This document shows, one piece after another, positions 54,867-62,871 of a DNA stretch of 64,000 bases. The notes under the pieces were generated by a model that had not been told where the DNA came from, did not search any database, and saw nothing but the letters and a program-made list of their open reading frames with translations. The DNA is from Salmonirosea aquatica (GTDB lineage: Bacteria; Bacteroidota; Bacteroidia; Cytophagales; Spirosomataceae): contig NZ_WHLY01000002.1 in the NCBI RefSeq assembly GCF_009296315.1, positions 3,702,501 through 3,766,500 on the forward strand, read 5' to 3'. The number at the start of each line of letters is the position of its first letter. Position 1 is the first letter of the stretch. A program made the position numbers and the translations under genes.

Positions 54867-56390
54867 TCAATAGCCGGGGTTCTGCGGACCAAGGTTAGGA
54901 TTCACCTGCAATTCAATCCTCGGTAGGGGCATCAAATAGTCCCGGTTGGGATCGAAGTTAGGATGCGGTTCCAGAGAGTTGGGACCTGTGAAGGCGGCTT
55001 GCCCCAATTTACGCCGCTTGATGTCGTACCAGCGCTTGTATTCGAAAGCCAGTTCGAGTCGTCTTTCCTCCAGCACCAGATTGATAAAGGCATCTTTGCT
55101 CAATCCAGAGTTCACGTCCTCGGGGAAACTGGTTTGCTTTCCCGCCCAATTCCGGGCCCGACTCCGGATCTGATTTATATAGCCAATGGCTTCCGCATTG
55201 GGACCGCCATTCACTTCGGTCAACGCCTCGGCGGCAATCAACAGTACCTCAGCGTAGCGCATGGCGGCGTAGTTATGGTCGGAGTAGCGCCCTTCGGTAT
55301 TGGAATTACCCGCGTAGCGGGCGTACTTGGCAATATGAGGGCGCTTGGTATTGTCGAATACGGTATAGGGCTGTAGGATTCCCTTGATCAAAATTGAATC
55401 CGTAAAGCTCACCTGCTTGCGGTAGTCGCGGGAATCCCAGGTATTGTAGACAGCCATCGACGGTACCGCCACGCTCCAGCCGCTGCGGGGCGCGTCGGCA
55501 CCCCGAACGCCCGTCATGGGGGGCATGATATCGTCGTTAGCTCCGCCGCCGCCGTTCTGCTGTCCCAGGAAATCAATGGCAAACAGGTGCTCTTTCAAGT
55601 TGTTGGGCTCAGGGGCCCGGAAAAGATCCTGAAAATCAGCGACCAAACCGTACCCGAACTTTGCCTCATTGTCGATGACGAATTTGGCTTCGGCATAGGA
55701 TTTCTGGTAATCGGCCAGCGTCAGGTACACCGAGGCCAGGTAAGCGGCCGCCGTCCCTTTGGAAGGCCGACTCCGCACGCTGTTGGGCTGCTGGTCGGGC
55801 AGCCACTGCTTGGCGAATTGGAGATCGGCGATGATGTTCTGGTAAACGGTGGCAGCGGACGTCTTGGAAATATCCTTCACCGAAGTGGGGTCCGTTATAA
55901 AGCGATCGAGGTAGGGAATATCGCCGAATGTCCGAACCAGATGATAGTAGGAAAAGGCCCGGACGAAGCGGGCTTCGGCAATCAGGGGATTGCCTTCGTT
56001 TTCAGGCAATCCCAAGCCTTCTGCTCCCGAAATAGCCGCGTTGACCGCGCTGATCGTCTGATACCAGTAGGGCCAGAATTGCCGTACCATGTTGTTGTTA
56101 TCATCCATGTTGAAGTCGTTGACCTGCTGCCGTTCAGCCGGGGTACCCCGGTCGCCGATGTCGGCCATGTCGCCGCGCAACAGCAGGGCCGTGACGAATT
56201 GCCGACCATACAACCGCTCGCTGGCGATCCAGCCATAGGCCCCGAAAATGGCCGTTTGTACATCTTTTGGCGTTTTGAAAAGAGATTCCGGCGCCAGGAT
56301 ACCGACGGGGTCCTCTTCCAGATCGGTGCAACCCAGAAAGAGGGTACCCACCAGGGAAATTAAGAAATATTTTACTGCACGATTTTTCAT
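54867..56390 (-). CDS. susD: SusD/RagB-family glycan-binding lipoprotein
   Basis: A 507-aa outer-membrane lipoprotein (lipobox LFLGC, Cys near residue 21). The TPR-like SusD fold begins at EDPVGILAPESLFKTPKDVQ; EARFVRAFSYYHLVRTFGDI is the conserved first-helix block; the C-terminal RRLELAFEYKRWYDIKRRKL is family signature. It works with SusC as the binding lid for glycan import. The start is 32 bp after the susC stop. The sugar bound cannot be inferred. Confidence 0.94.
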   Translation of the reverse strand: MKNRAVKYFLISLVGTLFLGCTDLEEDPVGILAPESLFKTPKDVQTAIFGAYGWIASERLYGRQFVTALLLRGDMADIGDRGTPAERQQVNDFNMDDNNNMVRQFWPYWYQTISAVNAAISGAEGLGLPENEGNPLIAEARFVRAFSYYHLVRTFGDIPYLDRFITDPTSVKDISKTSAATVYQNIIADLQFAKQWLPDQQPNSVRSRPSKGTAAAYLASVYLTLADYQKSYAEAKFVIDNEAKFGYGLVADFQDLFRAPEPNNLKEHLFAIDFLGQQNGGGGANDDIMPPMTGVRGADAPRSGWSVAVPSMAVYNTWDSRDYRKQVSFTDSILIKGILQPYTVFDNTKRPHIAKYARYAGNSNTEGRYSDHNYAAMRYAEVLLIAAEALTEVNGGPNAEAIGYINQIRSRARNWAGKQTSFPEDVNSGLSKDAFINLVLEERRLELAFEYKRWYDIKRRKLGQAAFTGPNSLEPHPNFDPNRDYLMPLPRIELQVNPNLGPQNPGY

Positions 56391-56422: not shown

Positions 56423-59400
56423 TTAAAAGCCAATATTCAAGCCTACGGTATAAGATTTGGCATTAGGATAGCTACCGTAATCAAGGCCCAGGTTGCGGTT
56501 GCTATCGGTGGCACCCGACGAAGCGTAGTTGACCTCCGGATCATATCCCGGGTATTTGGTAAAAGTCAGTATATTCTGGGCGCTGGCGTAAAGGCGCAGC
56601 TTGGTCATGCCCAGTTTCTTGATCACGGAGGTTGGGAAGTTGTAGCCCAGAGCCAGGTTTTTCAGGCGCACGTAACTGCCGTCATAAATCCAGCGGGTCG
56701 ATACCCGGCGGGAACGGCCGGCAAAGGCTTTGGGAACATCGGTATTCGTATTGGTGGGAGTCCAGCGGTTGAGGGCCTCCGTAGTGGCGTTGTTGTTGCC
56801 CGACAGCAGGTTGAGTTCCATGAGCGAATAACTCAGGATATCGTTCCCCTGGGAGCCCTGAAAGAACAAATTCAAATCAAACCCCTTGTAGTTCAATTCG
56901 TTATTGAGTCCCCAGATGAAGTCCGGATTGGGATTCCCAATGATAGCACGGTCGTTGCTATTGAGGGTACCATCTTCGTTGATATCCCGGAACCTCTCGC
57001 CCCCGGCGGCCTGTTCAAAACCTCCACCAGGCAGGTAAGTATCCCCTTCCTGGTACACACCGTCGTATATCCAGCCAAAGAAACTACCCACCGGATAGCC
57101 TTCCCGCAACACATGGGTGTTGCCCAGCCCCACCAGGTGGCCGGGGGCGGCGCTGTATTCCAGGTCGGTGCCGCCCGGCAGCGCGAGTACCTTGTTACGG
57201 TTCATGGAGAAGTTGACGTCCGTGGTCCATTTCAGGTCACCCACCAGATTGCGGGTGTTGAGCGTTAATTCAAATCCCTTGTTTTCCACCGAACCGATGT
57301 TCTGCAATTGGGTGGCATACCCCGAGTATTGGGGCAACTGAACGCTGAAAAGCAGGTCACGGGTGACCATCCGGTAGTAGTCCAGCACCAGATTGATCCG
57401 GTTTTTGAAAAGGCTGATGTCCGTCCCCACGTCAAACTGAGCGGTGGTTTCCCAAGTCAGGTCGTTGTTGGCCACGGTGGTGGGCCGCACGGCGTTGACC
57501 GGTACCCCGTCAATGACGGTGAATACATTGGAGAAGCGCGCCAGGGTTTGGTAGGGCGAAATGGCCTGGTTGCCCGTCAACCCGTAGCTGACCCGCCACT
57601 TCCACTGGCTGATGAGGTTGCTGTTTTGCATGAAGGGTTCGTTGGACATTTTCCAGGCAAATGCGCCCGATGGAAAAGTGGCGAACTTATGGTTCCGGCT
57701 GAAGTTAGACGAACCGTCGCGGCGGATATTGGCCGTGAACAGGTACCGGTCCAGCAGGGAGTAATTCAGGCGCGCGTAAAACGACTTGATCTGTGACTCG
57801 GTGAGGCCGGAAGTGGGGCTTTGCCACACCGCCGAGCCGTCCAGGTTCCAGTACGACACGGCGTCGGTGATGAACGACTGTCCGGTGCCGCTCCAGCTTT
57901 CGCTCGACGAGCTTTGGTAGGAATAGCCCCCCAATAGGGTGAGGTCGTGAATCCCGCCGAATATCCGGGAATAGGTCAGGTAGTTTTCGTTCAGCAACTG
58001 TGTGCTTTTAGAACCGCTGACCGACGCCTCCCCCCCAACTGAGCGTCCGGAATTGAGGGTCGTGGGAGCGAAGTACCCCGCCCGCCCGCTGTTGGTCGTG
58101 GCTCCCAGAGTAGTGCGGAACTTAAGATGGTCGATGATTTCGTATTCCGCGAAAAGGTTGCCCTGAACCCGGTCGTTCACCGATTCATTCTGTAGCTGGG
58201 TGGCTACGGCATAGGGATTGTCGGTTGGGTCGTTGACGCGGGAAACGGTGAAGCGGCCCGTTTGCGGATCGCGGATCGTCTGATCGGGTTCGAATTTGAA
58301 GGCCGCCGCCACTACACCCGGCGTCAGGCCCCCGGAACCTTCCTGGGTGTAGGCCTGCTGCTTGGAACTGCGCTGCGCAAACAGGTTGAGACCGATCCTG
58401 AGCTTACTATTGGCTTTCACCTCCACGTTGCTGGTGACGGAAAACCGCTTGAAGCCCGAGTTCAGAATGACGCCTTTTTGGTCGTACAAGGCACCGGACA
58501 GGTAGTAGCTGACGGCGTCGCTGCCGCCCGAAATGGAAAGCTGGTGGTTCTGGATGCCGCCCGTTCTGAAAATCTGGTCTTGCCAGTCGGTGCTGGCTCC
58601 CGGCGACGTGTAGGTAGGCCGCGCCTCTTTAATGTAATCGACAAATTGGGTGGCATTCAACAAATCCAGCCGATTGATTTCGTTTTGGCTCGAAATAGAC
58701 GTATTGAGTTCGATCCGTGGCTTACCGGATTTTCCCCGCTTGGTGGTGATCATGATGACCCCGTTGGCACCCCGCGAACCGTAGATGGCCGTGGCCGACG
58801 CATCCTTGAGTACTTCCAGCGATTCGATGTCTTCGGGAGGGGGAATGGCCCCGCCCACGAAGCCGTCCACCACGTAGATGGGGTCGCTGCTGGCGTTGAT
58901 CGAAGTACCCCCCCGGATCCTGACCTTGTAGGCCGCGCCGGGTTCTCCGTTGTTGGCCTGAATCTGTACCCCGGCAGCCCGGCCCTGCAAAGCCTGCACG
59001 GCCCCCGTAGCCGGGTAAGCGGTCATTTCCTCCGCACTCACCGACGACACCGAACCTGTGATGTCACTTTTCTTGACCGTACCGTAGCCTACCACGACCA
59101 CCTCGCTCAATGCTTTGATGTCTGCATCCAGACTTACGTCAAGCTGCTGGCGGTTGCCCACCGTGATTTCGCGTGAGAGGTACCCCACAAAACTAAATAC
59201 CAGCACGGAACCGGGGCCGGGCACGGTCAGCTGGTATACCCCGGAAGTATTGGTGGTGGTACCCAGACTGGTACCTTTCACCACCACACTCACACCGGGG
59301 AGGGGCTGATTGTTGTCGGCTCCGGTGACGGTACCCGTCACTGTAACGTCCAGCGGCTGCACGCGCTCCGAAAGGCGAGTACCCAATAGGCGCCGGGGCG

Positions 59401-59782
59401 TATTGATCGCCAGGCGTTTCGACTTCGACAGCAGAATCTGGTCGTCTACTACCCGGTATTCGATATGCAGCGGTAGCAGCAGCCTGTCCAGTACCGAAGA
59501 CAGAGGTTCTTTCCGAGCGCTTATGTCCACCGGCTGGGAAAGCCGGATGACATCGCGACTATACGCAAATTTGACCTGCGTGGTGTTCGCAAGCTGGGAG
59601 AGGGCCTCCCGAAGCGTAGCTTTGGATAGACTGAGGGTGACGCCCCGGTCAAGGAGTTCCTGCGCCGGCGCAGTATGGGCGTACGCCATGGCCGACATAA
59701 AACTTACACACAACAGCTGACAAAAGGTAATTCTCATGATTGTGAATAAGACTCCACGTTTGGAATACAGATGTTTCTTCAT
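56423..59782 (-). CDS. susC: SusC/RagA-family TonB-dependent transporter with STN domain
   Basis: A 1119-aa outer-membrane importer. After the signal peptide comes an STN domain (about 45-115, TLREALSQLANTTQVKFAYS) for signalling to the anti-sigma factor FecR, then a carboxypeptidase-D-like beta domain (VTGTVTGADNNQPLPGVSVV), the TonB-box/plug (SEVVVVGYGTVKKSDITGSV) and the barrel ending YTVGLNIGF. The STN domain fits the adjacent FecR and ECF sigma genes. A 195-bp gap separates fecR from susC, holding a plus-strand terminator. Confidence 0.95.
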   Translation of the reverse strand: MKKHLYSKRGVLFTIMRITFCQLLCVSFMSAMAYAHTAPAQELLDRGVTLSLSKATLREALSQLANTTQVKFAYSRDVIRLSQPVDISARKEPLSSVLDRLLLPLHIEYRVVDDQILLSKSKRLAINTPRRLLGTRLSERVQPLDVTVTGTVTGADNNQPLPGVSVVVKGTSLGTTTNTSGVYQLTVPGPGSVLVFSFVGYLSREITVGNRQQLDVSLDADIKALSEVVVVGYGTVKKSDITGSVSSVSAEEMTAYPATGAVQALQGRAAGVQIQANNGEPGAAYKVRIRGGTSINASSDPIYVVDGFVGGAIPPPEDIESLEVLKDASATAIYGSRGANGVIMITTKRGKSGKPRIELNTSISSQNEINRLDLLNATQFVDYIKEARPTYTSPGASTDWQDQIFRTGGIQNHQLSISGGSDAVSYYLSGALYDQKGVILNSGFKRFSVTSNVEVKANSKLRIGLNLFAQRSSKQQAYTQEGSGGLTPGVVAAAFKFEPDQTIRDPQTGRFTVSRVNDPTDNPYAVATQLQNESVNDRVQGNLFAEYEIIDHLKFRTTLGATTNSGRAGYFAPTTLNSGRSVGGEASVSGSKSTQLLNENYLTYSRIFGGIHDLTLLGGYSYQSSSSESWSGTGQSFITDAVSYWNLDGSAVWQSPTSGLTESQIKSFYARLNYSLLDRYLFTANIRRDGSSNFSRNHKFATFPSGAFAWKMSNEPFMQNSNLISQWKWRVSYGLTGNQAISPYQTLARFSNVFTVIDGVPVNAVRPTTVANNDLTWETTAQFDVGTDISLFKNRINLVLDYYRMVTRDLLFSVQLPQYSGYATQLQNIGSVENKGFELTLNTRNLVGDLKWTTDVNFSMNRNKVLALPGGTDLEYSAAPGHLVGLGNTHVLREGYPVGSFFGWIYDGVYQEGDTYLPGGGFEQAAGGERFRDINEDGTLNSNDRAIIGNPNPDFIWGLNNELNYKGFDLNLFFQGSQGNDILSYSLMELNLLSGNNNATTEALNRWTPTNTNTDVPKAFAGRSRRVSTRWIYDGSYVRLKNLALGYNFPTSVIKKLGMTKLRLYASAQNILTFTKYPGYDPEVNYASSGATDSNRNLGLDYGSYPNAKSYTVGLNIGF

Positions 59783-59789
59783 ACTTTTA
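59760..59789 (+). promoter_or_regulatory. Candidate antisense promoter (TTG-N19-TACTTTTA)
   Basis: On the plus strand, TTG (59760-59762) and TACTTTTA (59782-59789) are 19 bp apart and match the consensus at all but the last position. This would start an RNA near 59796, running opposite to susC and across its leader. Confidence 0.4.
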
Positions 59790-59795
59790 GAATGA

Positions 59796-59909
59796 ATTGG
59801 TTAAAGGTTAGAAATAGGTTTTCCGGGCTACGCTGGCCGGCGAATTCACCCGGGGAACAACAGTTAGCCATTCGGATCGGGGATGTTGGTAGCATCTCCG
59901 ATTTTTTTT
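59796..59909 (+). ncRNA. Candidate cis-antisense small RNA of the susC leader
   Basis: Inferred from the plus-strand promoter-like boxes at 59760-59789 and a terminator ending at 59909, giving an RNA of about 115 nt complementary to the susC 5' leader. PUL-associated antisense RNAs (for instance DonS in Bacteroides fragilis) sit in the same place and repress their PULs. Not proven here; the start is approximate. Confidence 0.4.
59876..59909 (+). terminator. Intrinsic terminator oriented opposite to the PUL
   Basis: ATCGGGGATG (59876-59885) pairs with CATCTCCGAT (59893-59902), 7-nt loop, followed by eight T (59902-59909). One pair is G-U in the plus-strand RNA but would be an A-C mismatch in the minus-strand RNA, and only the plus strand has the T-run. 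So it terminates a rightward transcript although fecR and susC are both leftward. Confidence 0.75.
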
Positions 59910-59977
59910 GCTAACCATCTCTGCACTGGCATTATCTTTATTTATTCATATAGCGAGTTTAAGGATTTTGTCATGGA

Positions 59978-61000
59978 TCAGTCGGAACACCCATCGCCGA
60001 AAATACGAATCGTATCGCCTTCCAACTCGTAGGTACTCCCCAGCAAAGTATTGATCATATTGAGAATTTCGGGCAGTCGCTGCTTGTTGAAATCGACCGT
60101 GAGCCGACAGGTATTGAGGGCCGGGTTGGCCAGTTCAATGTGTATCTGAAACGCTTTTTGCAGTTGTGCCGCAGCTTCCGACAAAGGTGTATCGTTGAAC
60201 ACCAGGGATGCCGGTCGCCAGGCTTGCTTTATTTCGGGTTTCGCAGCAGCCGTTTCAAGGGTTAGGCTCCTGGTGGCATTTTGGTAGGTGGCCTGCTCGT
60301 TGGTTTTTAGTACCAGTACCTCCTCATCGTGTGTCGGAGAAGCCGGGGCGCTTACGGCCACGCTACCGGTTAGCACCGATACATGATAGGAGGAGTCGTT
60401 TTCGTAGGCCCGTACATTGAAACTCGTACCCAGTACCTGGGTTTTGAGCGCGCCGCTATAAATAATGAAGGGATGCAGGGTATCGCGGACCACCTCAAAG
60501 AATCCCTCTCCGGCAAAGCGTACTTCACGATGGGGGGCGGGCGCAAAAGCAGCGGGATGAGAGAGCCGCGCGCCCGGCTGAAGCCACACTACACTCTGAT
60601 CCGGAAAAAGGTAGCGCTCGATTTTTTTGGTGGTGTTGGTATGAACAGTCCAGTCCGGGGTACCCGATGTCGCAGCGGAGGACGAATCCGTTGCCGGCCG
60701 ATTCCAGGCAAGGTACCCTACGCCCAGCAACAGAAGCAGGCTTGCCGCAATCCCGCTCAGATACAGCCACCGCCGTCTGTTCAGTGGAACAACAGGAGCC
60801 TCCTCACGCGGTGGCAACGTGTGGGCTATGTCCGCCCGAATGCGTTGCAGTAATGCGTGTTCATCGATGGAAAAAGGGGCAGCTTCCTGCTCCCGGTCGA
60901 GCCGGAGGTACCATTCGTCCACCACCCGCCGCTCCGCTTCGGTGCAGGTATTTGTGAGGTACCTTTTGAGCAAATCGGCAGGTAAAGCTTTTCCCTTCAT
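59978..61000 (-). CDS. FecR-family anti-sigma factor
   Basis: A 340-aa inner-membrane protein: an N-terminal cytoplasmic part with DLLKRYLTNTCTEAERRVVDEW binds sigma; one membrane helix (about 80-100, WLYLSGIAASLLLLLGVGYLAW); then the FecR periplasmic domain (LFPDQSVVWLQPGARLSHP, FAGEGFFEVVRDTLHPFII, VLGTSFNVRAYEND) and a C-terminal STN-like DUF4974 region. The start is the ATG at 61000; a TTG 33 bp upstream would add non-family residues. It sits between sigma and susC, the usual order. Confidence 0.92.
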   Translation of the reverse strand: MKGKALPADLLKRYLTNTCTEAERRVVDEWYLRLDREQEAAPFSIDEHALLQRIRADIAHTLPPREEAPVVPLNRRRWLYLSGIAASLLLLLGVGYLAWNRPATDSSSAATSGTPDWTVHTNTTKKIERYLFPDQSVVWLQPGARLSHPAAFAPAPHREVRFAGEGFFEVVRDTLHPFIIYSGALKTQVLGTSFNVRAYENDSSYHVSVLTGSVAVSAPASPTHDEEVLVLKTNEQATYQNATRSLTLETAAAKPEIKQAWRPASLVFNDTPLSEAAAQLQKAFQIHIELANPALNTCRLTVDFNKQRLPEILNMINTLLGSTYELEGDTIRIFGDGCSD

Positions 61001-61100
61001 TTTTTTGTTTAATAAACCCCCGGATAAGTACAACCTATATACTACTGTCTGTAGATAGCGGCAAAATCCCTTATCCGGAAATGAAAATTTTACAAAAAAA

Positions 61101-61691
61101 TCAGAGGAGCGAGCCCAAGGTGCTGGTTATTAGGGCAAAAACAATGTAGTCTTTCATCTCGATTCGCAGAATCCGGAGCGCCTTCCCAATGTGAGCCTCG
61201 ACGGTTTTTTCAGAAATCGCCAGCGAACGGGCAATTTCTTTCTGACTATAGCCTTTGCGGCTCAAAACGAATACCTCCCGACATTTTTCAGGCAGTTTCT
61301 GAAGCGATTGCTCGTACAGATCGTTGAGCGTGTCGAACTGGATTTGCTCACCGGTGATGTTATCGGAAAGCTGCGTGGCGTATTCCAGGGCGGTCGGTTG
61401 CCGCGCCTGCTCCTGGTGGTAGTGGGTAATAATCAGGTTCCGGAGCATCCCGTTGAAATAAGCCGCTACGGTTTTATGAATGGTACAGGTGTGGCGGTTG
61501 AGCCAGAATTTGACAAACAACTCCTGCACAAGATCTTGAGCAGCGGCGCTGTCGCCGGTTTTTCGCACTGCCGTATGGAGCAATGTATGAACATAGCGGC
61601 CATACAACGCATCAAAGGCCCTATCATCATCATGCTCGCGCATAAGACGAAGTAGCTCATTGTCGGTGTAGTTCTTATACGATTGGTCCAC
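61101..61691 (-). CDS. ECF sigma factor of the PUL (FecI-like)
   Basis: A 196-aa sigma factor. Region 2: RAFDALYGRYVHTLLHTAVR and DLVQELFVKFW; region 4: LQKLPEKCREVFVLSRKGYSQKEIARSLAISEKTVEAHIGKAL. The C-terminus is hydrophobic (DYIVFALITSTLGSLL). The frame extends upstream to 61862 without a natural start and would overlap the divergent gene at 61825, so I take GTG at 61691, giving VDQSYKNYTDNELLRLMREH and the usual length. Controlled by FecR and the STN domain of SusC. Confidence 0.9.
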   Translation of the reverse strand: MDQSYKNYTDNELLRLMREHDDDRAFDALYGRYVHTLLHTAVRKTGDSAAAQDLVQELFVKFWLNRHTCTIHKTVAAYFNGMLRNLIITHYHQEQARQPTALEYATQLSDNITGEQIQFDTLNDLYEQSLQKLPEKCREVFVLSRKGYSQKEIARSLAISEKTVEAHIGKALRILRIEMKDYIVFALITSTLGSLL

Positions 61692-61824
61692 TCTTTTGTC
61701 GAAACTCCTGAAAAGGATGCCGGTAATCCCTATTTTTACTCCAATAGCCCACGGACTGGCAGCAGGCAAGCGATTGGTTGCCGGTACGTTAAAGTTATGA
61801 AATTGCCCATTAAAAATAGTACCC

Positions 61825-62871
61825 ATGCAAGAAAATGTGCTCTCCCTCCGCATCAGGAACATTATTTCCGAAACTTCCGATACCCGTACCTTCGTGCTCG
61901 AACTGGCTGAGGGCGGGGCCTTATCCTACGAACCCGGCCAGTTTCTTACCTTTCTGCTGCATGTCCAGGGACACGAGGTACGTCGCTCGTACTCCATGAG
62001 CTCGACACCGGGTGTGGATGAGTTTCCGGCCGTTACCATCAAGCGCGTGACGAATGGCGAAATATCCCGTTACTGGCACGATCACGTGGAGGTGGGTACC
62101 CGGCTCACTGCCCTGCCGCCCGCGGGTAGGTTTGTGCTGGAACCTGCGGAAGGCCAGCCCCGCGATGTGGTATTGATTGGCGCAGGAAGCGGAATCACCC
62201 CTTTGTTTTCTATTCTTAAGTACGTACTGACCAACGAACCCGAAAGCCGCGTGACGCTGCTTTACGCCAGTCGCCGGGAGCGGAGCATCATATTTGGCAG
62301 GCAGTTGGCGGAGTGGCAGCGGGGGTACCCTGATCGGCTGGAAATCGTCCATGTGCTGAGTCAGCCGACCGATGACTGGCTGGGAACGCGGGGCCGGATC
62401 AACAATTTCCGGTTGGAGCGCATGATTGGGAGGTACCTTCATTTCCCGGCCGAGCGGGCGCGTTTTTTCTTATGCGGGCCCTTTGAATTGATGCGCACGA
62501 CCGAGATTACGCTTCGGTTTATGGGTTTTGAAGACGATCAGATTCGTAAAGAGAATTTCGTAATAGACCCCGCCCCGCCGCCACCGAAGCATTCGGAGCC
62601 ACACACGATCCAACTTACTTTCCGATCAAAAACCTATGCGCTGGAGGTACCTGCCTACACCACCATTCTGCAAGCCGGCCTCGAGCAGGGTATCCCGATT
62701 CCGTACAGTTGCCGGGGCGGCCGCTGCGCCACCTGCGCGGCCCTCTGCCGGTCGGGTACCGTACGGATGAGTATCAACGATGTGCTGACCGATCGCGATT
62801 TGGCGCAGGGCTGGGTGCTAACCTGCACGGCCTATGTGGAGAGTGAGGGTGTGGTGGTGGAGGTGGTGTAG
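61825..62871 (+). CDS. Ferredoxin--NAD(P)H reductase with C-terminal 2Fe-2S domain (second copy)
   Basis: A 348-aa paralogue of the protein at 2174-3268, with the same domain order: FAD motif RRSYSMSSTP (about 53-62), LIGAGSGITPLFS (about 117), and a ferredoxin domain with SCRGGRCATCAALC cysteines (about 296-309) plus LTCTAY near the C-terminus. The linker is shorter than in the first copy. Divergent from the PUL sigma gene and not part of the PUL by function. The partner oxygenase or reductase is not in this window. Confidence 0.87.
   Translation: MQENVLSLRIRNIISETSDTRTFVLELAEGGALSYEPGQFLTFLLHVQGHEVRRSYSMSSTPGVDEFPAVTIKRVTNGEISRYWHDHVEVGTRLTALPPAGRFVLEPAEGQPRDVVLIGAGSGITPLFSILKYVLTNEPESRVTLLYASRRERSIIFGRQLAEWQRGYPDRLEIVHVLSQPTDDWLGTRGRINNFRLERMIGRYLHFPAERARFFLCGPFELMRTTEITLRFMGFEDDQIRKENFVIDPAPPPPKHSEPHTIQLTFRSKTYALEVPAYTTILQAGLEQGIPIPYSCRGGRCATCAALCRSGTVRMSINDVLTDRDLAQGWVLTCTAYVESEGVVVEVV

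Follow-up and report, generated by a model that had tools for sequence, protein, structure and literature searches.

The window, a 64,000-nucleotide stretch of the Salmonirosea aquatica genome, contains a SusC/SusD locus in which all genes run leftward, and the gap between fecR and susC carries a hairpin with a T tract on the opposite, plus strand. The question is what a terminator of this orientation is for, and whether an antisense RNA ends at it. In the Pfam analysis, the locus was found to encode an ECF sigma factor, FecR (including FecR_C), SusC (including STN and plug domains), SusD, a xylose-isomerase-like TIM barrel and, separately, a BNR_4 protein; this set makes it a sigma/anti-sigma-controlled PUL. 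The genes and the gap are as follows:

54867..56390, minus strand: susD, downstream of susC and in the same direction
56423..59782, minus strand: susC, with STN, carboxypeptidase-regulatory, plug and barrel domains; presumed target of the RNA
59783..59977, minus strand: fecR-susC gap, the susC-proximal part of which is the susC leader, also a presumed target
59913..59951, minus strand: conserved block (35 of 39 positions identical in Persicitalea jodogahamensis), putatively the susC (ECF sigma) promoter region
59978..61033, minus strand: fecR, anti-sigma factor; exact start uncertain
61101..61862, minus strand: ECF sigma factor; exact start uncertain

The plus-strand hairpin consists of the stem ATCGGGGATG (59876-59885), the loop TTGGTAG (59886-59892) and the arm CATCTCCGAT (59893-59902), with eight T at 59902-59909; the terminator scanner assigned 14 pairs to it over 59874-59904, further A-U and G-U pairs included. 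The original prediction held that this terminator works on the plus strand only, and the two strands do differ accordingly: the G·U pair and T8 belong to the plus strand, whereas the minus strand has an A·C mismatch in place of G·U and lacks a T tract. A near-consensus plus-strand promoter over the susC start codon, claimed as well, was recovered as TTTG, a spacer of 19 nt and TACTTTTA, the final letter of which is A, not G, and the first T of which (59782) is the complement of A in the susC ATG. The housekeeping promoter of Bacteroidetes is described as TTTG around -33 and TAnnTTTG at -7 (PMC7366714). The plus-strand elements are:

59759..59762, plus strand: TTTG, located opposite susC codons 7-8, the candidate -33 element of the antisense promoter
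59782..59789, plus strand: TACTTTTA, candidate -7 element of the same promoter, with 7 of the 8 letters of TAnnTTTG
59795..59909, plus strand: predicted antisense RNA of about 115 nt with complementarity to the susC leader
59874..59909, plus strand: intrinsic terminator (stem, loop TTGGTAG, T8), identical in P. jodogahamensis

The predicted RNA has the expected length of about 115 nt if its 5' end is assumed 6 nt past the -7 box and its 3' end is placed at T8. With a 5' end that would lie about 13 nt before the susC ATG, the predicted RNA spans the leader and does not include the start codon.

Folding of 59860-59925 was equaled by none of 200 shuffles on either strand (z -4.87 for plus, -3.95 for minus), and folding of the predicted RNA (114 nt as scored) by one of 200 (z -3.88). 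The generic terminator scan found five terminator-like sites in 4 kb, which is not above chance (4.9 in shuffles); no E. coli-type promoter was returned by the generic scan of the 4-kb region, and Rfam 15 models gave no match at E<=5 in 59000-60600 and none at gathering in 18 related loci. Since a single site does not exceed chance in the generic scan, comparison with the ortholog, with other loci of the same genome and with relatives is decisive.

The closest relative found, P. jodogahamensis, is 82% identical over 3.17 kb. The hairpin region 59869-59912 is identical at 43 of 44 positions, compared with 722 of 923 in fecR; most of the gap (59783-59951) is identical at 156 of 169 positions, and the fecR-proximal 59952-59977 at just 10 of 26. 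Codons 1-28 of susC are identical at 83 of 84 positions; their third positions match in 28 of 28 cases against 518 of 894 in 56500-59182 (p=2e-7). An outer helix, GTTAGC/GCTAAC, encloses the hairpin (59863-59915); in P. jodogahamensis it keeps pairing on the minus strand via G·U and acquires A·C on the plus strand. As a separate observation, every third position of susC codons 9-28 (59699-59758), which extend past the antisense promoter, is identical between the two genera, and in the signal-peptide region DNA similarity extends to further genera; an overlapping signal in codons 9-28 is likely.

Search of the S. aquatica genome yielded 25 FecR matches. Other fecR-susC gaps of this genome had been proposed as the place to look for plus-strand-type terminators, and antisense terminators were found at 13 of the 25 fecR loci, namely, 12 with loops of up to 9 nt and locus L031, added at longer loops. 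The same scan detected no sense terminators in the gaps of these 13 loci; over the fecR loci, it gave two sense-strand matches, both weak (-6.0 and -6.5), 291 and 359 nt after fecR. The gap to the longest susC frame exceeds 100 nt at 15 fecR loci (leaving aside L023, where the start of susC is unclear), and the element is present at 13 of them, with the exception of L009 and L029. Shorter gaps lack the element, except at L032, where the longest frame extends to a hairpin whose T tract is poor, and where the box lies at a later start. At L023 (G000:C2:1324200-1331400), the susC N-terminus is apparently in a different frame from the remainder, which seems to be a frameshift or a sequencing error.

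The SusC list of this genome comprises at least 56 genes (56 of the 145 candidates scored), 34 of them not beside the fecR genes. Three susC genes of this latter kind have an antisense terminator: L095 and L107, both with the -7 box and with the terminator located 113-114 nt before the start, and L232, added by the covariance model and absent from the 56-gene list; the predicted RNAs in the genome total 16. Further hairpins at the 34 genes were left uncounted, both antisense (L099, 227 nt; L102, 245 nt, two-way; L100, inside coding sequence) and sense (L093 and L102).

Among 57 placed susC starts, 14 have both the terminator and the antisense -7 box, 2 only the terminator, 1 only the box and 40 neither (p=2e-10); in other words, the box TAnnTTT[GA] is located at the start of 14 of the 16 susC genes with an antisense terminator and of 1 of the 41 without. 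TTG at a spacer of 19 or 20 nt was found at 8 of 15 antisense-terminator loci compared with 22 of 388 background starts, so the -33 element is absent from about half of the loci. The predicted RNAs at 15 loci are 98-132 nt long. For the control set, ORFs were called crudely in 26 stretches of 20 kb, giving 115 codirectional gaps and 388 starts. Antisense terminators are present in 10 of these gaps and sense terminators in 22; 7 of the 10 carry both, and none of the 3 antisense-only gaps is at a SusC gene. The box TAnnTTT[GA] occurs at 8 of the 388 background starts; its sense-strand form, CAAAnnTATG, could partly reflect the composition of translation starts.

Another motif was observed on the sense strand, immediately before the hairpin: [GC][CG][CT]ATG (59938-59949 in the window) is present at 12 of 17 loci of this genome (500 shuffles: mean 1.6, maximum 6 of 17), and ATG followed by a stop within three codons, e.g., ATGTAA or ATGAAGTAA, at 11 of 17 (shuffles: mean 4.4, maximum 10). 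The exact GCCTATG, on the sense strand only, occurs at 4 of the 25 fecR loci of this genome and at 4 of the 17 from the plasmid collection, and some of its further matches in loci of named relatives look to be inside fecR. The motif may be a start-stop mini-ORF or part of the susC promoter. The search for a sense-strand promoter motif shared by all loci was only partly successful.

The hairpins share a feature at the apex. The pattern [AG]TG-[TCG]T-N(1-6)-CA[CT] was found in 9 of 14 PUL hairpins of this genome (L020 and L232 were left out of the count) and in none of 124 background terminators; since the pattern was derived from these very hairpins, the value p=5e-11 is descriptive only. Covariance model R1 was built from 38 hairpins, including that of the window, which as a training-set member scored 39.9 bits. 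In the S. aquatica genome, R1 gave 15 hits at E<0.1, of which 12 are antisense to susC starts (3 of the 12 outside the training set); the other three are a palindrome matched on both strands and a further hairpin.

Search of 36 relatives' genomes with R1 at E<=0.003 gave hits in 18, S. aquatica included. Of 53 hits outside S. aquatica, 28 were examined, in 17 genomes, at least two of them (L298 and L319) repeating training-set hairpins; 27 lie on the strand opposite to a SusC gene, 31-111 nt from the start of the longest SusC frame, and the 28th is on a 1786-nt stretch without such a gene. The -7 box is present at the longest-frame start in 19 of the 27; another 6 have it at a different, more likely start, which is 85-101 nt away from the hairpin (25 of 27 altogether). 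Across the phylum (118 genomes, E<=0.01), 17 hits outside S. aquatica were obtained, two of which are the strands of one place; 5 of the 17 are antisense to SusC, all with the box, and the other 12 are not. Judging by 27 of 28 versus 5 of 17 hits at SusC, R1 is specific in the vicinity of this family, and its specificity is much lower over the phylum as a whole. A strong R1 hit at L257 (G312:C19), GTAATG-TTGCAG-CATTAC followed by a T tract, has no gene start opposite within 230 nt and is possibly a free-standing relative of these hairpins.

The set also shows strand polarity: over the 38 hairpins, G·U pairs number 68 on the antisense strand against 5 on the sense strand, the antisense fold is the more stable one in 33 of 38, and covariation is strong by count, partly circularly, all these counts being inflated because the hairpins were chosen as antisense-strand hairpins.

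Relatives, likewise proposed for comparison, were sampled by a SusC protein search, from which the best 80 of 383 loci were taken, 78 of them usable. The FecR protein search of genome contigs gave 38 stretches matching a pattern and no relatives; FecR alignment A1 was too diverse as a query. Both elements were found at 35 of the 78 loci, the terminator only at 4, the box only at 12 and neither at 27; the association (p=1e-7) involves many loci that are near relatives of each other. L210 is the sole locus of the 78 with a sense terminator as well, and TTG at a spacer of 18-21 nt is present at 10 of the 35. Both elements occur, among others, in Dyadobacter, Persicitalea, Rhabdobacter, Pseudarcicella, Flexithrix, Cyclobacterium, Arenibacter, uncultured Allomuricauda and MAGs named Emticicia, Pseudopedobacter, Croceivirga and Bacteroidales. 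They are absent from those Telluribacter SusC orthologs for which no fecR was found in 1.9-2.0 kb upstream, and the element is absent from Dyadobacter loci with fecR close to susC (L152, L161).

In the plasmid collection (20 loci, 17 with a FecR match scanned for antisense terminators), such terminators are present at 8 of 17 loci: 5 of Parabacteroides distasonis, 2 of Spirosoma oryzicola and 1 of Bacteroides finegoldii. The box was found at 7 of these 8; in L276, L279 and L284 the start that carries it lies upstream of the annotated start. The Parabacteroides loop at L274, TTGGTAG, is the same as that of the window, and the B. finegoldii loop at L284 is TTGGCAG, both in the fecR-susC gap. No antisense terminator was counted at the other nine (L275, L277, L285, L286, L287, L289, L290, L292, L293); in Segatella L287, the gap contains a sense terminator, and the antisense ones, found among alternative starts, are all weak. 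L278 and L280 have no terminator, and a weak one at L283 was not counted. By its DNA elements, the arrangement extends well beyond Cytophagales.

Several other explanations of the hairpin were weighed. It may be an insulator, stopping stray antisense transcription that leaves susC, with no dedicated small RNA: a terminator so oriented would do this whatever the promoter, and antisense transcription is reported to be common in bacteria, F. psychrophilum among them (PMC9723704). For such a role, however, neither a partner promoter nor a recurring loop is needed, and the terminator co-occurs with a box in a fixed place (14/2/1/40), with a rightly spaced -33 TTG at 8 of 15 loci and a spacing that gives RNAs of 98-132 nt; an insulator without a dedicated small RNA is unlikely. 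The hairpin could instead work in the sense susC mRNA, as a leader structure, in stability or in sensing, the T tract of the opposite strand being incidental. The sense strand of 59860-59925 does fold well, and the outer helix in P. jodogahamensis pairs on this strand, by G·U, with A·C on the plus strand; but the T tract is on the antisense side, as are most G·U pairs and the stabler folds (counts biased by the choice of hairpins), and the antisense promoter would be left without explanation. We consider this reading quite improbable.

Still less is to be said for a chance resemblance, in which an AT-rich translation start mimics a promoter near an unrelated hairpin: it agrees with the generic scan, where shuffles contain as many terminator-like sites as the region, and is made very improbable by recurrence and specificity in the S. 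aquatica genome and relatives and by conservation in P. jodogahamensis. A plus-strand mRNA for a 40-aa protein (59792-59914) has in its favor a frame that is open in S. aquatica from ATG 59792 to TAA 59914. This ATG, however, falls slightly before the predicted 5' end of the RNA, and the ortholog in P. jodogahamensis, despite 92% DNA identity, has an in-frame stop after codon 18; the frame is not conserved as open, so the small protein was rejected, its probability being close to nil.

The observation of a plus-strand terminator together with a promoter at the susC start was confirmed, and its first reading is supported at the level of DNA sequence. Pairing of the two plus-strand elements, their recurrence, conservation and strand polarity point to a probable DonS-type cis-antisense RNA, which would be made from its own promoter, end at its own terminator, repress susCD and be overridden by transcription driven by the sigma/FecR pair. 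The housekeeping-type promoter TTTG-N19-TAnnTTT inside the start of susC would drive the plus-strand RNA of approximately 59795-59909, to be stopped by its own terminator. This RNA may pair with the complementary susC leader beside the translation start and keep susCD off by blocking translation, by promoting decay of the mRNA and/or by interfering head-on with susC transcription; as an alternative to pairing, the two promoters may interfere with each other head-on. The adjacent ECF sigma/FecR pair, once activated by substrate, would drive sense transcription sufficient to override the RNA.

A further conjecture, which we regard as rather doubtful, is that these RNAs form one ancient Bacteroidota family, the apical loop (UUGGYAG and variants) of which would be a shared recognition site, either for kissing contacts with susC leaders or for a common protein; the RNA of one PUL might then damp others, resulting in a hierarchy of glycan use across the genome. 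Such PUL cross-talk becomes directly testable with the recurring loop and the start-codon promoter, which together with the covariance model also provide a signature for finding RNAs of this kind in unannotated genomes. Antisense control of SusC/SusD operons has been studied in gut Bacteroides; if the RNAs are made, the same layer of control would act in this environmental bacterium at 13 of 25 fecR loci, or about half, as well as on SusC genes of other Bacteroidota.

Among known systems, the predicted RNA is closest to the DonS family of B. fragilis, the source paper for which is reportedly Cao et al. 2016, J Bacteriol 198:2410. It lies opposite the 5' region of a susC homolog; its 115 nt, with ends taken from sequence elements, fall within the 78-128 nt of that family, and by sequence it has its own promoter of the sigma-ABfr type (-7 box, 7 of 8 letters) and an intrinsic terminator. 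The DonS RNAs are described as cis-antisense RNAs, divergent to susC homologs and lowering their expression (PMC7366714); asRNAs are reported for 15 PULs of B. fragilis (PMC9723704), a number similar to the 16 predicted here, and the 98-132 nt predicted at 15 own loci are similar to the DonS lengths. The differences are the host, which belongs here to Cytophagales, and the predicted status of the RNA, DonS being compared by its description only.

The view that Bacteroides PULs carry cis-antisense RNAs in this place agrees with DonS and with B. thetaiotaomicron, for which 10 and later 32 PUL-associated asRNAs of DonS-like orientation are reported (PMC7366714, PMC10994844). According to the same sources, 52% of all cis-antisense candidates of that species carry a sigma-ABfr promoter. 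Its asRNAs were mapped by RNA-seq and partly by Northern blotting, whereas the S. aquatica RNA is predicted. The 32 asRNAs are described as correlating both negatively and positively with their PULs (PMC10994844); given the positive pairs, repression need not be general.

The sRNAs FopS/GibS offer another comparison: FopS RNAs likewise act at the susC translation start and have sigma-ABfr promoters and an intrinsic terminator, but, as described, are about 65-70 nt long and act on many PULs through a short 5' seed rather than through full complementarity to an opposite gene; 9 FopS genes are intergenic, 4 antisense and 1 3'UTR-derived (PMC11697453). General intrinsic terminators are alike in stem and T tract and differ by the recurring apex, absent from the 124 background ones. 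In F. psychrophilum, 287 transcribed regions antisense to 281 CDSs are reported, a list that could include susC genes (PMC9723704). Among the literature matches listed, from a collection with few subscription papers and with supplements left aside, no antisense RNA at susC was described outside Bacteroides. The class of RNA is already known, and its distribution across the phylum, the recurring apex and the promoter embedded in the start codon seem to be new.
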